Positions 5,986 to 44,278 of a DNA stretch of 44,278 nucleotides are shown one piece after another (positions within the stretch are counted from its first letter, which is position 1; each line of letters opens with the position of its first letter). Below the pieces are notes generated by a model, which was not told the origin of the DNA, did no database searches, and was given only the letters and a program-made list of their open reading frames with translations. This DNA is from a virus: IMG/VR virus record IMGVR_UViG_3300024999_000179, positions 1 to 44,278 of that record; one strand, 5' to 3'. A program made the translations under genes and the position numbers.

Positions 5986-6175
5986 AAGCCTGGAATTGAT
6001 TGTCGAGGCCTTGCGAAAGCACGGGGCCGATGCGTGCACGATCGACGGTTGCCGAGCGGTTTTCGAGCTGGAAATGGAATTTTCCTTCAAGCGGGGGATG
6101 GTCTTGGGGATTCAGCAGGTCGAGGATGTGATCAACCAGGCACAGGCGGACATCAAGCAGGATGGTGGCCGCTGA
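5978..6175 (+). CDS. Small hypothetical protein before the primase
   Basis: This 65-residue ORF has GGAGG before its ATG and overlaps the upstream ORF by 8 bases. It reads as a compact alpha/beta protein (NRSLELIVEALRKHGADACT, then FELEMEFSFKRGMVLG and a helix). The stop codon overlaps the primase start as TGATG. Co-translation with the primase-helicase suggests a replication role, but the sequence shows no known domain. Confidence 0.6.
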   Translation: MNRSLELIVEALRKHGADACTIDGCRAVFELEMEFSFKRGMVLGIQQVEDVINQAQADIKQDGGR

Positions 6176-8613
6176 TGGGCTGGGCGAAAAAGCATCTGAG
6201 TGAGGAGGAAAGGCGGGGCATCGCCGCCGGCCTGTTTGCCGTCAAGGAGCTGTCCGGCAGCTGGCAGAACGGCCTCTGTCCGTTCCACGAGGACGCCAAC
6301 CCATCGTTTGGCTACAACGCGGTCGAGGATGTCTTTCACTGCCATGCCGCCTGCTGCAAGGACGGCGACCTGGTCGATCTGTTCTGCCAGGTCAACGGCC
6401 TGGGAAAACAGGGTGGTTTTCTCGAGTTTCGGAAACTGTACGGCAGCGAAGAGGACGGCCACCGGCCGCCGCCGACGCCGAGGCCGCCAAGGAAACCGGC
6501 GCCAGGGAACCCCGGCAAGGCGGCCCAGGACCAGGCGGAAAAGCCTAAGCCGAAAAAGGCCGACGAGGATCTGCCGCCGGTGGATCCGGCGCAGATGGCC
6601 GAGGCCTACGCGATGTTTCCGGCGCTGCCGGAGAAGTGGCAGGAGCGGTTGTTCGAGGTCTGCGGCTGGTCGCGGGAGATCATCGCTCGGCACGGCCTGA
6701 AGCTGCAGAGCCATTACCGCTGCCGTTACACGGGCGTCCTCAAGCCGGTGAACCAGGGGCACGGCCGCATCGTCATCCCGATCTACGACGAGGACAGCGG
6801 CGTGCTGGCCAATATGCGGCTGTACGACCCGAACGCCCGGGAGGCGAAGATCATCTCCTGGGGCAAGGGAGTCGGCGGCAACCGGCTCTACCCGGCGCCG
6901 GCGCGCGGCGGCTACGGCCTGGTGCTGCTCTGCGAGGGGGAAAAGGACACGCTCTGCGCCCGCTCGCTGGGTTACGAGGCCTATACCCAGACCTCGAAGC
7001 GCAAGAAGTGGCCGGAGGACCAGATCAGGCCGTTCCGCGGCCGGGATGTGGTGATCTGCTATGACGCCGACCTGCCGGGCCAGGATTACGCCCGGTCGGC
7101 GGCAGCCTCGCTGCTCGGCCAGGCCGGATCGGTGCGGCTGCTGCACTGGCCGGATTACATGCTGGCCGAGGACGGCGCGCTGCCGGAGAAGCACGGCGAA
7201 GACTTCGTCGACTTCGTGGTCAAGCACAAGAAGGGCCGGGCCGATTTCGAGGCGCTGCTGGCGGCGGCCACCGAGTACACCGACGAGGAGGCCGCCTGCC
7301 CGGCCCTGCAGTTCTTCGGCGAGACCCTGGGTGGTCGCTACAGCTTCCAGCCGCGGCTGCTGGCCGAGCGGCTGCGCAAGGATGTCGACCTGCTGCTGGA
7401 CCCGAAAACGGATCTGCTCTACCGCTGGAACGGCAAATACTTCGAGGAGTATCCCGAGAAGTATTTGAAAAAGCTGGCCATCGAATATCTCGGCAACGAG
7501 GCGGTGCAGGCCCGCTACAACGACGCGGTAAACCAGGCAATCCACCTGTCGACGATTCCCTACGGTCGCCAGGTCAATGACCGGGAAAACATCAGCTGCC
7601 TGAAAAACGGCATGTTCAACGTCGACAGCTTCGAGCTGCTGCCGCATCACAAGGAGTATTTCTCGACGATCCAGATCAACGTCGAATTCGACCCCACCAG
7701 CCCGCCGCCCTGCCCTCGCTGGATGCAGTTCTGCGAGGAGACCATCCAGAAGGTTGGACCGATCATGCAGTTCCAGGAGTTCTTCGGCTACTGCTTCACC
7801 CGGGACACCCGCTACGAAAAAGGCCTGTGGGCGCTCGGCGACGGGGCCAACGGCAAGAGTCTGGCGATGCGGATACTGCGGCACCTGGTCGGGCCGGAAA
7901 ACTGCACCTCGGTGAGTTTCGAGGGGCTCGAGGACCAGTTCCAGCGGGTCAGCCTGTTCGGCAAGCTGGTGAACATCTCCACCGAGGCCGGACACGGGGC
8001 GATCGATTCGCAGTATTACAAGAAGATCGTCAGCGGCGACGATATCAACGCCGCCTTCAAGCACAAGGATTCCTTCAATTTCACGCCATTCGCCAAACAG
8101 ATCTTTGCCCTCAACCAGATGCAGAAAATCAAGGACAACACCGACGGCTTCTACCGCAAGGTGCTGCCGATCATGTTCCGGCGGCAGTTCCTCGAAGACG
8201 ATCCGGATCGCGATCCGTTCCTCGAGAAAAAACTGCTGGCGGAGAGTCCGGGGATCTTCGGCTGGGCCATGGCCGGGCTGGTGCGGGTGCGCAAGCAGAA
8301 CGGCTTCACCCGCTGCGAGGAGACGGAACGGCTGATCGACGACTTCCGCCGGCAGAACAACCCGGTGCAGTGTTTTGTCGAGGATAAGTGCGTGATCGGT
8401 TTGAAAGAGGAAATTTTTACCGAAAAGCAGCTGCTCTACAACGCCTATCGGACCTACTGCGGCGAAAAGGGCTACGGCCCGGTGCACGAGCAGAATTTCT
8501 TCCGTGAACTCCGCATCGTCCTGAAAAACATGGAGAAACGGATTATCGAGTACCGCCGGCGCGAGGGCGATGAGCGGACCAGGTGTCTCAAGGGGATCGG
8601 GCTGAAGCTATGA
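6175..8613 (+). CDS. Primase-helicase, P4 alpha/D5 type
   Basis: This 812-residue replication protein has three modules. Residues 30-75 are a CHC2-like zinc finger (Cys35, His38, then Cys56/His57 and Cys60/61) that binds template. About 245-305 form a Toprim-type primase core with LLCEGEKDTLC and VVICYDADLPG. From about 440 onward is a D5_N plus superfamily 3 helicase module. There the Walker A motif GDGANGKS is near residue 555, NISTEAG is near 597, and the sensor-like ALNQMQKIKDNTDGF is near 645. A charged Pro-rich linker (110-145) separates finger and primase. Such proteins recognise the origin, unwind and prime. The repeat-rich region just downstream is the obvious candidate target. Confidence 0.93.
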   Translation: MGWAKKHLSEEERRGIAAGLFAVKELSGSWQNGLCPFHEDANPSFGYNAVEDVFHCHAACCKDGDLVDLFCQVNGLGKQGGFLEFRKLYGSEEDGHRPPPTPRPPRKPAPGNPGKAAQDQAEKPKPKKADEDLPPVDPAQMAEAYAMFPALPEKWQERLFEVCGWSREIIARHGLKLQSHYRCRYTGVLKPVNQGHGRIVIPIYDEDSGVLANMRLYDPNAREAKIISWGKGVGGNRLYPAPARGGYGLVLLCEGEKDTLCARSLGYEAYTQTSKRKKWPEDQIRPFRGRDVVICYDADLPGQDYARSAAASLLGQAGSVRLLHWPDYMLAEDGALPEKHGEDFVDFVVKHKKGRADFEALLAAATEYTDEEAACPALQFFGETLGGRYSFQPRLLAERLRKDVDLLLDPKTDLLYRWNGKYFEEYPEKYLKKLAIEYLGNEAVQARYNDAVNQAIHLSTIPYGRQVNDRENISCLKNGMFNVDSFELLPHHKEYFSTIQINVEFDPTSPPPCPRWMQFCEETIQKVGPIMQFQEFFGYCFTRDTRYEKGLWALGDGANGKSLAMRILRHLVGPENCTSVSFEGLEDQFQRVSLFGKLVNISTEAGHGAIDSQYYKKIVSGDDINAAFKHKDSFNFTPFAKQIFALNQMQKIKDNTDGFYRKVLPIMFRRQFLEDDPDRDPFLEKKLLAESPGIFGWAMAGLVRVRKQNGFTRCEETERLIDDFRRQNNPVQCFVEDKCVIGLKEEIFTEKQLLYNAYRTYCGEKGYGPVHEQNFFRELRIVLKNMEKRIIEYRRREGDERTRCLKGIGLKL

Positions 8614-8637
8614 AAACGAAGCCGAACAGCGTTAGGC

Positions 8638-8950
8638 GGTCCGGGGTTTTCGTTAATGTGATCAATGGTTTAGCCAATTTGGTCCACCCTAGGTCCGGGG
8701 TTGGTCCACCCTGCCCTGTCTCAGATCGTATGTATTTTCAAGGTGTTGCTTGTGGTGGTCCAGGTGGTCCGGGGTTTTCAAAAATAATACGTATATGCGC
8801 GCGCGCGTATGGAGCATTTTTTTCAACGAAAAGTTTTCTGCAAAATCCAGGCGACTTTTCCGGAAAACCCCGGACCACCCGGACCACCTTTGTCATTTCA
8901 ATAGCTTAGGATGTTTTTCAGGTGGACCACAGGGTGGACCACCCCGGACC
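8638..8950. repeat. Candidate replication origin with GGTCCGGGG repeats
   Basis: The gap after the primase gene holds repeated GGTCCGGGGT or GGTCCACCCT words. Forward copies start at 8638, 8681, 8692, 8703, 8757 and 8766. Inverted copies lie at about 8865-8887 and 8920-8949. The pair at about 8754-8779 and 8863-8888 forms a nearly perfect inverted repeat with arms of about 26 bp. Its 85-bp centre holds TACGTATA, an alternating GCGCGCGCG run and T-rich blocks. Directly repeated sites around an AT-rich segment next to a helicase gene fit an origin. ORFs crossing this stretch are short and repeat-driven. Confidence 0.55.
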
Positions 8951-8986
8951 ATTTTATTTAAACTCGTGTTTTTATTAAAAAAAACC

Positions 8987-9427
8987 ATGGACCAAAAAAA
9001 CAATCAAAGTCTGCAGGAAAGCATCCTCGCCGCCTACGGCGCCGCTTCCTTTTTGCCCGGAGCGGTTGCCGAGGTTGCCAGTCCCGGCCCTGGGCCTGAA
9101 AAAGAAAAAGAGACCCAGGCCCGGGAGGCGGCGGCCGGCGAGATGCCCTATGTCGAGAAGGGCCAGCTGGCCGGGCGGATCGCCCACCTCGACGGCCAGG
9201 CCCAGGCCGACATTGTGGAGATGAGCCGGATCATGGGCGGCCATCCGATCGTGGCCTATGTCTCGGCCGACGAGCGGGCGGCCGGGGTGCTCTGCAGCCG
9301 GGAGTGGATGCAGGAAAACTGGGAGATCTACTGCCGCTTCGCCGGCTGTTTCTTTCGCAGCCACGAGGCGATCTGCACCGAGTTCGGGGCGGAGCTGCGG
9401 CGGGTGGGGGTGAGTTATGGGAAATGA
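8987..9427 (+). CDS. Hypothetical protein
   Basis: The 146-residue product starts at an ATG without a clear ribosome site, just after the origin-like region. Its N-terminal 50 residues are low complexity (Ala, Gly, Pro, Glu). The remainder looks folded, with AGRIAHLDGQAQADIVEMSR, then SREWMQENWEIYCRFAGCFF. No family is recognised. It is the first gene of the accessory block between replication and packaging. Confidence 0.6.
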   Translation: MDQKNNQSLQESILAAYGAASFLPGAVAEVASPGPGPEKEKETQAREAAAGEMPYVEKGQLAGRIAHLDGQAQADIVEMSRIMGGHPIVAYVSADERAAGVLCSREWMQENWEIYCRFAGCFFRSHEAICTEFGAELRRVGVSYGK

Positions 9428-9436
9428 GGCGATGGC

Positions 9437-10279
9437 ATGATCCGAGTCTTTCCACGCCGGACAAAATGGACTCCCGTCGATAACCTGGCCTTTGTCGGTT
9501 TTCCGTCGATGTTCCTGCCTCCTGATCAGCCGGTGAAAATATCGTGCGTGTTCACCTGGGATATTCCCCTGGCTGAACGGTTACTCAAGGCATGGTCGAA
9601 ACATTATTCGGATGTGCAGATAGGCGGTCCGGCCTTTGGCGACCAAGGGGGGGATTTTGTACCGGGAAGGTTCATCAAGGCCGGGGTCACCATAACCTCT
9701 CGGGGCTGCAGTCGCCGCTGTCCGTGGTGTTTTGTACCTGGCAGAGAGGGGAAAATCAGGGAGATCGCCATTCAGCCAGGGTGGATAGTCCAGGATAACA
9801 ACCTGTTGGCCTGCAGCAGGGAGCATATCGTGGCGGTTTTCGCCATGCTCAAAGAGCAAAAGCGGGGCATAAACTTTTCCGGCGGACTGGATTGCCGCTT
9901 GTTGCAGCCGTGGCACCGGGACCTATTTGACCAGATAAAAATCGACGAACTGTGGTTTGCCTGTGATTCAAGCGAGCAGATCAGACACCTGGAGCGGGCT
10001 GCCGGTATCCTTGAAGGTATCAGCCCAAGAAAGCGGCGGTGTTACACGATGATCGGATTTGATGGCGAGAGGATCGAGGATGCAGAACGACGGCTGGAGC
10101 GGGTGTTCGAGCTCGGATTTTTCCCCTTCTGCCAGTTATTTCAAAGCGACGAAAAAAAAGACTATCCGCGGGAATGGAAAAACCTGCAACGAAAGTGGTC
10201 GAGGCCTGCGGCCTATGTGTCGAGCCACAAGGTTGCAAGCAGCGATCGTGTTGATGAAGCAGCATGGTTGGAGGCGTGA
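9437..10279 (+). CDS. Phage radical SAM protein
   Basis: This 280-residue protein carries the 4Fe-4S cluster motif CSRRCPWC, with the CxxxCxxC cysteines at 91, 95 and 98. It should therefore cleave S-adenosylmethionine to start radical chemistry. Residues 35-70 (CVFTWDIPLAERLLKAW, then IGGPAFG) look like a degenerate Rossmann segment similar to the cobalamin-binding part of B12-type radical SAM enzymes. After the cluster come NLLACSREHI and FSGGLDCRLL, which fit the barrel core. I recall similar proteins in phages and bacteria, but the substrate is unknown to me. Base or tRNA modification are possibilities. It lies in the accessory block before terminase. Confidence 0.85.
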   Translation: MIRVFPRRTKWTPVDNLAFVGFPSMFLPPDQPVKISCVFTWDIPLAERLLKAWSKHYSDVQIGGPAFGDQGGDFVPGRFIKAGVTITSRGCSRRCPWCFVPGREGKIREIAIQPGWIVQDNNLLACSREHIVAVFAMLKEQKRGINFSGGLDCRLLQPWHRDLFDQIKIDELWFACDSSEQIRHLERAAGILEGISPRKRRCYTMIGFDGERIEDAERRLERVFELGFFPFCQLFQSDEKKDYPREWKNLQRKWSRPAAYVSSHKVASSDRVDEAAWLEA

Positions 10280-16344: not shown

Positions 16345-17382
16345 ATGACCAGGGCAATCCAGCCATCCTTTTTCGACGAGTTGATCATCGACAACTTCGC
16401 CGGCGGCGGCGGGGCCAGCACCGGGATCGAGCTTGCGCTCGGCCGGGCGGTCGACATCGCCATCAATCACGATGCCGAGGCGGTGCTGATGCACACGGCA
16501 AACCATCCCTATACGACCCACTACTGCGAGGACGTCTGGTCGATCGATCCCGCTGCGGCCTGCCAGGGCCGGTCGGTCGGCCTGGCATGGTTTTCCCCTG
16601 ACTGCAAGCATTTCAGCAAGGCCAAGGGCGGCCAGCCGGTTTCCCGGCACATCCGCGGCCTGGCCTGGGTGGTGATACGCTGGGCCCAGAAGGTCCGACT
16701 CGGGCTGATCCATGTCGTCTCCACCAGGCCTGAGCCCCTGTGCGCGATCACGAAAAAGGAGTGCGTCCGGGAGGGTTTTCCCGAAATGGAGCCGGCTGAT
16801 TTTGTCGCGATGCTGTGCCGGCATTACCGGTGCGATCCGGGTAAGACGATCAATAGGATTGAGTTTGTTTACCTATACCATGTCGTCTCCACCAGGCCTG
16901 AGCCCCTGTGCGCGATCACGAAAAAGGAGTGCGTCCGGGAGGGTTTTCCCGAAATGGAGCCGGCTGATTTTGTCGCGATGCTGTGCCGGCATTACCGGTG
17001 CGATCCGGGTAAGACGATCAATAGGATTGAGTTTGTTTACCTATACCATGTCGTCTCCACCAGGCCTGAGCCCCTGTGCGCGATCACGAAAAAGGAGTGC
17101 GTCCGGGAGGGTTTTCCCGAAATGGAGCCGGCTGATTTTGTCGCGATGCTGTGCCGGCATTACCGGTGCGATCCGGGTAAGACGATCAATAGGATTGAGT
17201 TTGTTTACCTATACCATGTCGTCTCCACCAGGCCTGAGCCCCTGTGCGCGATCACGAAAAAGGAGTGCGTCCGGGAGGGTTTTCCCGAAATGGAGCCGGC
17301 TGATTTTGTCGCGATGCTGTGCCGGCATTACCGGTGCGATCCGGGTAAGACGATCAATAGGATTGAGTTTGTTTACCTATAG
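16345..17382 (+). pseudogene. Truncated C5 cytosine methyltransferase fused to repeated ASCH-like ends
   Basis: Residues 1-118 are the N-terminal part of a phage DNA cytosine-5 methyltransferase. Motif I is DNFAGGGGASTG and the catalytic loop region is FSPDCKHFSKAKGG, then the frame stops being methyltransferase at AQKVR. The ENV motif, QxRxR motif and target-recognition domain are all missing. It continues in frame into LGLIHVVSTRPEPL and a segment ending NRIEFVYL. This resembles the C-terminal half of ASCH-like phage proteins, and the 56-residue unit is present four times, identical. The frame is open to a TAG, so a 345-residue protein could be made, but it cannot be an active methyltransferase. 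It probably arose by deletion between two neighbouring genes followed by tandem duplication. An assembly error is possible. Confidence 0.8.
16711..17381 (+). repeat. 168-bp perfect tandem repeat, four copies
   Basis: Copies start at 16711, 16879, 17047 and 17215 with an exact 168-bp period (56 codons), so the reading frame is kept. All copies look identical except that the last ends CTATAG instead of CTATAC, which gives the stop codon. The join shares CCATGTC with the sequence before copy 1, a microhomology suited to slippage. Perfect identity means either very recent amplification or an assembly artefact. Confidence 0.95.
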
Positions 17383-40931: not shown

Positions 40932-41102
40932 ATGAGTACAGTACAACGAATCGAAGAATTGCTGTCAGCCGCCGTCAAGGTGCCGATCAGGGATGCCGCC
41001 GGCATAATCACCCCTGCCGGAATCGACGCGGCGGCCAAGGTCAAGGCCATTGGCGAATGTCTGAAGAGCGCCAAAGAAGAGGAGCACAATGAGACAACCT
41101 GA
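40932..41102 (+). CDS. Small lysis-module protein
   Basis: This 56-residue ORF (RIEELLSAAVKVPIRDAAG, then IITPAGIDAAAKVKAIGECL) starts two bases after the previous stop and overlaps the endolysin start by 14 bases. It looks like a small helical cytoplasmic protein. Function is unknown. Translational coupling with the endolysin is likely. Confidence 0.55.
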   Translation: MSTVQRIEELLSAAVKVPIRDAAGIITPAGIDAAAKVKAIGECLKSAKEEEHNETT

Positions 41103-41616
41103 TCGTGAGAAAATAAAAAAATGGCTCGTCAGGATCAATGGCCACGAGGGCGGATATTCCAACAGGTCGCCGAAAGCAGACCCTGGTGGAGAAACCAAGT
41201 GGGGTATATCCAAGCGCTCCTATCCGCATCTGGATATCAAGAACCTGACGCTCGACCAGGCAGCAGAGATCTACCTGCTGGAATTTATCGCTCCCATCTC
41301 CTCGAGGCAGCTGCCTGATGCCATAACCTACCAGCTAATAGATTTTTCCGTGCATAGTGGTATCAGGAGGGCGGTAAAAGAGCTGCAGCGATGGATGAAC
41401 ATCGTCATCGACGGGCAACGAGTGGAGCCGGACGGAGTGATCGGGCCATACACCCGGGCAAAAATCCTGTCGTTTTCCGATTCGGACCTGGTGATGATCA
41501 TCATCGCCGCCCGGCTGAAATTTTTAAAGGATTTGAACAACTGGCACGATAACAGTCGCGGCTGGGCGGATAGAATGGCAAACAACCTGATCTATGGGGT
41601 AGAAGACACTGACTAG
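41089..41616 (+). CDS. Endolysin, GH108-type muramidase
   Basis: This 175-residue enzyme should cut peptidoglycan glycan strands. HEGGY puts the catalytic Glu at residue 20, followed by DPGGETKWGIS (residues 32-42), the family signature. The C-terminal 100 residues (LIDFSVHSGIRRAVKELQRW, then DGVIGPYTRAKI) match the PG_binding_3 domain usually linked to it. No signal peptide is seen, so export needs a holin. A 23-bp repeat array begins inside its stop codon. Confidence 0.92.
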   Translation: MRQPDREKIKKWLVRINGHEGGYSNRSPKADPGGETKWGISKRSYPHLDIKNLTLDQAAEIYLLEFIAPISSRQLPDAITYQLIDFSVHSGIRRAVKELQRWMNIVIDGQRVEPDGVIGPYTRAKILSFSDSDLVMIIIAARLKFLKDLNNWHDNSRGWADRMANNLIYGVEDTD

Positions 41617-41866
41617 ATCTGCTCCGGGGTTTTCAGATCTGCTCCGTCTGGGTTTTCAGATCTGCTCCGTCTGGGTTTTCAGATCTGCTCCGTCTGGGTT
41701 TTCAGATCTGCTCCGTCTGGGTTTTCAGATCTGCTCCGTCTGGGTTTTCAGATCTGCTCCGTCTGGGTTTTCAGATCTGCTCCGTCTGGGTTTTCAGATC
41801 TGCTCCGTCTGGGTTTTCAGATCTGCTCCGTCTGGGTTTTCAGATCTGCTCCGTCTGGGTTTCACC
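41615..41866. repeat. 23-bp tandem repeat array (iteron-like)
   Basis: The unit AGATCTGCTCCGTCTGGGTTTTC runs head to tail. Unit starts are every 23 bp from 41635 to 41842 (nine exact copies and a last one lacking a T), after one 20-bp degenerate copy at 41615. Each boundary contains the palindrome CAGATCTG. The array starts at the endolysin stop and runs into the 3' end of the leftward gene for a ribbon-helix-helix protein. Two diverged units with a 23-bp offset lie upstream of that gene (42133-42175). This suits a binding array. The sequence is given as 20 bases or fewer per motif: core CTCCGTCTGGGTTT. Confidence 0.93.
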
Positions 41867-42069
41867 ACAACGGGGCGGCGCCAGCCGTGCGCAAGGCACA
41901 GCGCCGCCTCGATCTCTTTTGCCCGGCTCTTCGGCAGGCTGTCCAGCTTTTTAATCAGCCAGTCCGGCAACGTCAGGCCGACCTGCCGTTTTTTTAGATA
42001 GGGATCTTTTTTCGGGGCGCCGGATCCTTCCCGGGCGCCGCCCCATTCCCCCTTCTCGGTTTTGCTCAT
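41794..42069 (-). CDS. Ribbon-helix-helix DNA-binding protein
   Basis: The ATG at 42069 follows GGAGAG and gives 91 residues. An N-terminal GGAREGSGAPKK segment (GG-R-G-GRP type, DNA-minor-groove-like) leads to a ribbon-helix-helix: strand RQVGLTLP, helix DWLIKKLDSLP, then KSRAKEIEAALCLAHG. Such proteins bind short tandem DNA repeats as dimers of dimers. The last about 24 codons are encoded by the 23-bp repeats, whose three-frame cycle supplies the stop, so the true C-terminus may have been replaced. A repressor or partition-type role is inferred. Confidence 0.75.
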   Translation of the reverse strand: MSKTEKGEWGGAREGSGAPKKDPYLKKRQVGLTLPDWLIKKLDSLPKSRAKEIEAALCLAHGWRRPVVVKPRRSRSENPDGADLKTQTEQI

Positions 42070-42120
42070 AGGCTCTCCATTTTTGCCTGAGAGTATATAT
42101 ATATTTTTCAAAAGGCAAGC

Positions 42121-42153
42121 AAAAACCCGGGGGATTACTCCGCCCGGGTTTTT
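42121..42153 (-). terminator. Bidirectional intrinsic terminator
   Basis: AAAAACCCGGG (42121-42131) pairs with CCCGGGTTTTT (42143-42153), giving a GC stem with T-runs on either strand. It separates the 42202-42602 genes from the ribbon-helix-helix gene. Its right arm overlaps a diverged copy of the 23-bp repeat core. Confidence 0.85.
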
Positions 42154-42175
42154 GGTCTTGCTCCGTCCAGGTTTA
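42133..42175. promoter_or_regulatory. Two diverged 23-bp repeat units upstream of the ribbon-helix-helix gene
   Basis: Two units share CTCCG(C/T)C(C/T)(G/A)GGTTT with the array at 41615-41866. Their CTCCG cores are at 42138 and 42161, exactly 23 bp apart. They lie 64-106 bp upstream of the ATG, where an autoregulatory operator could sit. The overlap with the terminator stem is a caution. Confidence 0.5.
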
Positions 42176-42201: not shown

Positions 42202-42582
42202 CTACCGGTAGGGCCGATCGTATTGGCCGATGTTGATGTCCACGTACCAGCCGACATCAAAATAGTCCGTCATGGTGTCGGATCGGTCGTGGTTGCCCTT
42301 CATCATCGCCCGGTAGGCCCTTTTTAAAAATGTGAGGGCCTGGCCGCTGTAGTTTTTATCGATGTGGTATTCGTTTACTCGGATGTGGGTTGCCGGGGTA
42401 AAATCACCGTAGCCGTTGTCTCTCCATGCGGCCTCGGCCCTGGCGTTGTAGTCGGTCAAAAAATCGATTGACCCGGCCTGGATGTTGAGTACGAGCGTAG
42501 AGTGATGCCGTACGGCCAGGCTGGCCTTCATGCCAAATTCCCTGCATATCTCCATGATTTCCGGAGCCATTTTCTTTTTCAT
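42202..42582 (-). CDS. Accessory-region hypothetical protein
   Basis: This 126-residue protein has an N-terminal helix and strand (EIMEICREFGMKASLAVRHH), HIRVNEYHID and a C-terminal RAYRAMMKGNHDRSDTMTDY, then FDVGWYVDINIGQYDRPY. I recall this C-terminal pattern in small proteins of plasmids and phages, possibly related to large polyvalent protein domains. The family name is uncertain. A 7-codon ORF with its own ribosome site overlaps the start. Confidence 0.65.
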   Translation of the reverse strand: MKKKMAPEIMEICREFGMKASLAVRHHSTLVLNIQAGSIDFLTDYNARAEAAWRDNGYGDFTPATHIRVNEYHIDKNYSGQALTFLKRAYRAMMKGNHDRSDTMTDYFDVGWYVDINIGQYDRPYR

Positions 42583-42939: not shown

Positions 42940-43389
42940 TTATTTTTTGGCCAACCTCGCCACATAGGCCTCGATATCGCGCTCGTCACGATCAGAGCCG
43001 CCGCCGTACCAGAAACCGTTGGCCCACCACTCCAGGCAGGCGATATCGTAAGCCGGCAGGGTGGACAGCCGGGTGATCAGGTCCGGGCCGTCGATCTGCC
43101 ACTTCTCGGCCAGGCCCTCCAGGTCCATGGCGTCGCCGAGGGAGAGTGGCAGCTCGCTGCCGGCGGTAAATGAGTTGAGCGCGTGGGCGTTCATCACGTC
43201 GATCATCGCCATCAGCTCGCCGCGGCTAAACTTGTTTTTCAGGTCGTCGAGGGTGCGGGAGTAAAGCACCCGGCTGGCCTCGAGGACAAACTCTGCCCCC
43301 CAGGTGGCCGACTGGAAGGTATCGGCCAGCCAGTCGCGGGTTTTTTCAGATATTCTCGGGGTGATGTTCTTTTTTGTTGGTGCTGCCAT
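42940..43389 (-). CDS. Hypothetical accessory protein
   Basis: This 149-residue protein has AAGGAGA before its ATG and is helical: KKNITPRISEKTRDWLADTF, then LDDLKNKFSRGELMAMIDVM and LPAYDIACLEWWANGFWYGG. The N-terminal basic PTKKNITPRIS segment is often found in small DNA-associated proteins, but that is weak evidence. It lies between two terminator-like structures and is probably expressed from the 43964-43992 promoter. No family is recognised. Confidence 0.65.
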   Translation of the reverse strand: MAAPTKKNITPRISEKTRDWLADTFQSATWGAEFVLEASRVLYSRTLDDLKNKFSRGELMAMIDVMNAHALNSFTAGSELPLSLGDAMDLEGLAEKWQIDGPDLITRLSTLPAYDIACLEWWANGFWYGGGSDRDERDIEAYVARLAKK

Positions 43390-44053: not shown

Positions 44054-44278
44054 TCCACCAGGCCGCAGGCCTGCATATCCTATCTCCTGCTATGGTGATC
44101 CACCGAGCAGCTGCAGGGGCAACCCCCTGCCCCCTGGTGGCTGTGCTGTAGTCCACCAGGCCGCAGGCCTGCATATCCTATCTCCTGCTATGGTGATCCA
44201 CCGAGCAGCTGCAGGGGCAACCCCCTGCCCCCTGGTGGCTGTGCTGTAGTCCACCAGGCCGCAGGCCTGCATATCCTA
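44054..44278. repeat. 98-bp tandem repeat reaching the window end
   Basis: Copies start at 44054, 44152 and 44250 (the last cut off after 29 bases) with an exact 98-bp period and no seen differences. Each has a 10-bp palindrome GCAGGCCTGC, a GGGCAACCCCCTGCCCC hairpin and complementary ends (CCACCAGG with CCCTGGTGG), so the whole unit can fold. No gene is seen. Perfect repeats at an end can mark where an assembly stopped. Confidence 0.9.

Follow-up and report, generated by a model that had tools for sequence, protein, structure and literature searches.

A repeat array that touches the gene of a DNA-binding protein invites a regulatory story. The question raised by the present locus is whether its 23 bp tandem repeats are acted upon by the small protein encoded next to them or are the product of repeat expansion. 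Comparison shows that the array is absent from relatives and that it gives the small protein what looks like an accidental tail. We consider it likely, with a probability of about two in three, that the array is a recently expanded intergenic minisatellite that grew from a spacer and is silent for both neighbouring proteins. Were the protein shown to bind the repeats, the locus would add a new regulatory array of phages and a ribbon-helix-helix (RHH) family with hardly any known members.

The array and its surroundings

The window, i.e. the whole 44,278 nt stretch of IMG/VR record IMGVR_UViG_3300024999_000179, is an integrating, temperate lambda-like phage that is GC-rich and tailed. It encodes an integrase, CI-like and Ner-like regulators, a CII-like protein and a primase-helicase, together with the structural and lysis genes for a gpA-type terminase, portal, protease, major head and tail proteins and an endolysin. 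A radical-SAM-like protein (phrog_9298) is encoded at 9437-10279, between the replication and packaging genes. Beside the integrase, the 3' fragment of a tRNA-Leu gene can be read from the sequence at 1469-1530 and is a probable attP; no whole tRNA was detected by ARAGORN. The array is situated where the rightward late block, of which the endolysin gene is the last, meets the leftward accessory genes. The features of this region are as follows.

41089..41616, + strand: GH108-type endolysin gene (PF05838, E = 7.8e-17; phrog_315 endolysin, 1.1e-38)
41615..41862, no strand assigned: 23 bp tandem array, 10.9 copies, consensus AGATCTGCTCCGTCTGGGTTTTC, between the endolysin gene and the small gene
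41794..42069, - strand: 91-codon gene for a predicted RHH protein (the small gene), core residues 1-69 at 41863-42069
42115..42161, no strand assigned: near-perfect inverted repeat that would fold into a terminator-like hairpin of about -32 kcal/mol in either direction
42138..42174, + strand: probable diverged copy of 1.6 array units (28/37 identities) that keeps the 23 bp register
42202..42582, - strand: gene of the phrog_10415 family, widespread in phages (E = 2.3e-32), upstream of the hairpin and the small gene

The 11-copy array of the preliminary description is confirmed by TRF (period 23, 10.9 copies, 98% matches, score 475), and with head-to-tail units within the range of about 10-60 bp and high identity it has the form of a minisatellite. 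Nine units, starting at 41641 to 41825, are all identical. The first unit is 20 bp long and is devoid of TCT, and the last is partial and trails off in GGGTTTCACC. Together they occupy the whole gap between the convergent endolysin gene (+) and small gene (-). As had been described, the array abuts the endolysin stop codon and supplies the 3' end of the small gene: its left edge is the AG of the endolysin stop TAG (41614-41616), which thus overlaps the first array bases, and its right edge enters the minus-strand gene 42069..41794, of which residues 70-91 and the stop TGA are array sequence. Copies of this array aside, the 1.33 Mb of fetched loci contain no other array with at least four copies, a period of at least 12 and at least 90% identity.

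The array is real, since it is also carried by a separate contig, IMGVR_UViG_3300025154_000375, which is 99.94% identical to the window over the 5.1 kb compared; the two assemblies are possibly not fully independent. This contig is broken within the array and is the sole other copy known, no further virus of viral_contigs carrying it. The copy number is uncertain, 11 being the count resolved by one assembly.

Two diverged units with the same 23 bp spacing had been noted upstream of the small gene, and this anatomy is borne out by the 1.6-unit copy at 42138-42174. Of 113 random genome segments none attained 28 identities, the best score being 27 of 37. Because the match beats random segments and adjoins the same small gene, we accept it as a true diverged copy of the array, probably but not overwhelmingly so. 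It keeps GCTCCGTC and GGTTT of the array unit. Its left half sits within the right arm of the hairpin at 42115-42161, which looks like a two-way terminator.

Relatives of the flanking genes

The small protein probably binds DNA as a regulator, and its assignment to the RHH class is plausible but not proven. In Pfam, no match was obtained for the full-length protein at E ≤ 1 or for the core at E ≤ 10. A weak NCBIfam match points to the BrnA antitoxin (E = 0.019) and a weak PHROG match to a repressor (E = 0.19); BrnA antitoxins are of the RHH type. AlphaFold (AF2) models, calculated from a single sequence and from two sequences, predict a short strand and helices 36-44 and 47-61, with a pLDDT of about 75-90 in these elements, low values elsewhere and low overall confidence. 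Fold searches with the model returned no meaningful PDB match, and neither the small gene nor the genes next to it were recognised by PADLOC. The small RHH-like gene stands as first described, while the RHH identity itself is a prediction.

A single good homologue, L157 (60 amino acids, 61% identity over 57 residues), was the real match in a search of genome_contigs. It is encoded on a contig of a Methylococcaceae MAG with a phage-like gene order as read from the ORFs. L157 ends with HGWKKPSF and a stop, equivalent to HGWRRPVV at the point where the array of the window starts. The L157 gene has a hairpin and T-run of its own downstream, and no array is found nearby. The 201 genomes of the same order yielded no further relatives, and tblastn searches returned none from phages, noise only from plasmids and only the same virus from viral_contigs. 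Matches to L004, L005 and L160 in viral_contigs were rejected as chance matches on motifs, as was L158 in genome_contigs, a chance frame opposite a chaperonin-like gene.

Relatives of the endolysin in the viral collection, which range from 86% to about 50% identity, have neither the array nor the small gene, so these are not its constant companion. The closest of them retain the same EDTD-stop end. On the other side of the hairpin, the phrog_10415 gene has many viral relatives. The phage contig L162 has the accessory gene at 42940-43389 in common with the window (66%) and carries its own unrelated intergenic repeat of 20 bp × 3.2 (L162:1391-1455).

Probable expansion of the spacer and competing explanations

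In the reading that we prefer, the short spacer between the convergent endolysin and RHH-like accessory genes would have been duplicated head to tail into about 11 near-identical 23 bp units, presumably through unequal recombination or slippage during replication. The expansion was probably seeded by a copy of the sequence that also overlaps the terminator hairpin on the upstream side of the small gene, and this gene may have come as a cassette between two such copies. Phage moron or cassette genes carry their own terminators; the small gene resembles them in layout, lying between the late genes and the integrase side, on the strand opposite to the former, with a hairpin upstream. Expansion would then have overrun the last codons of the small gene, resulting in a tail of about 20 residues. 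Since the unit length of 23 bp is not divisible by 3, none of the minus-strand frames of the array runs beyond about 23 codons before a stop is reached. Because of these stops, and because the endolysin ends at the array edge, a change in copy number would leave both proteins unaltered and may well be neutral.

Tandem expansion of a spacer accounts for the identical units, the partial end units and the abutment on both gene ends, and also for the extra tail relative to L157 and the occurrence of two further exact tandem repeats in this genome. It is further supported by the array-free endolysin relatives and by L157, which ends where the array begins. On the other hand, the upstream copy in the 23 bp register would also fit an old functional array, and arrays so regular are rare in the comparison loci. 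Moreover, expansion is not seen directly, as no intermediate copy number was encountered in any related phage.

A functional link between the small protein and the array is possible but unsupported. The RHH-like protein could bind the repeats, making the array an operator or decoy and the upstream units part of an autoregulatory or looping site. Related repeats that share one register do lie on both sides of the small gene, the unit contains a single palindrome, the 8 bp CAGATCTG, and the predicted topology of the protein is RHH-like. However, this palindrome is lost in the diverged upstream copy, which sits some 70 bp ahead of the start codon and partly inside the hairpin, not over the likely promoter. 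The homologue L157 does without an array and the RHH assignment is weak, which makes binding of this kind unlikely. A more elaborate version, in which the protein would be a regulator from a new RHH family and the 23 bp direct repeats on either side of its gene would serve it as an array for titration or looping between late and lysogeny-side transcription, is quite improbable.

It is also unlikely that the array separates the convergent late and accessory transcripts, either by blocking transcription or by forming a structure at the mRNA 3' end, a role akin to the insulator between lysis and accessory genes of the preliminary description. Its location between convergent genes agrees with such a role, and CAGAUCUG of adjacent units can pair, with a folding z of -3.35 on the minus strand but only -1.7 on the + strand. 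The array itself has no terminator signature, a U-tract is missing directly after the paired stems, and a terminator-like hairpin separate from the array is already provided at 42115-42161. A search against Rfam gave no match, and a promoter and terminator scan gave no excess over chance.

Assemblies often miscount tandem repeats (PMC9879509), but the contig 3300025154_000375 begins with nearly five units at its very edge and has the same shortened first unit, and we consider an assembly artefact or inflated repeat count very improbable.

Iterons of a replication origin are expected beside the replication initiator, and the array is 33 kb from the primase-helicase gene and the origin-like cluster after it. 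The primase-helicase gene (6034-8613) is followed by an origin-like cluster at 8570-8995 with eleven TGGTCC boxes in both orientations and a 26 nt inverted repeat (96%) around an AT-rich stretch, and the replication origin is probably located here, at about 8.57-9.0 kb. The 13-mer TCCGGGGTTTTCA, common to the first array unit and the origin-like region, was dropped as a link, as roughly one in four segments drawn at random from the genome has an exact match of at least 13.

The first suggestion, that the locus serves a plasmid-like phage as a partition centromere or as iterons for copy control, can practically be dismissed, as the probable origin is 33 kb away, an integrase and an attP-like tRNA-Leu fragment are present, the plasmids and phages searched gave no match of note and, as already observed, no partner NTPase (ParA, ParM or TubZ) is seen among the proteins scanned with Pfam and PHROGs, a set that includes part of the small ORFs. 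RHH centromere proteins do use repeat arrays: in the Omega (ParB)/parS system of pSM19035, the RHH ParB needs contiguous 7 bp boxes that lie over promoters, and ParA is its partner (PMC9499535). The likeness consists of a small, here predicted, RHH-type protein near a repeat array. In contrast, the units of the phage are spaced by 23 bp and lie at a gene 3' end, not at the promoter of an operon. Since the motor (among the scanned proteins), the contiguous boxes and the promoter location are all missing, partition is unlikely, and the loss of the palindrome upstream and an array-free sole homologue argue further against a phage centromere.

Other repeats of the phage

For the proposed process of spacer expansion, an analogue may be found in Borg elements, which contain perfect intergenic tandem repeats that sometimes start in the end of an ORF, have partial flanking units and terminate contigs (PMC9879509). 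The phage shares with them near-perfect units, about 20 bp long and arranged head to tail between genes, partial flanking units and contigs that end within repeats, as well as an in-ORF repeat with a length that is a multiple of 3, here 168 bp (PMC9879509). The likeness would be one of process and not of membership: in contrast to a Borg, this is a GC-rich tailed phage with only three arrays, the units of which are not A-rich.

The 168 bp (56-amino-acid) repeat is present as four exact in-frame copies at 16710-17381, followed by the stop codon, in a cytosine-methyltransferase-like gene (16345-17382). The other end of contig 3300025154_000375 falls inside this repeat, at 16.7-17.4 kb. A third repeat, exact and of 98 bp in 2.3 copies, occupies 44054-44278 at the end of the contig, which is probably where the assembly stopped.
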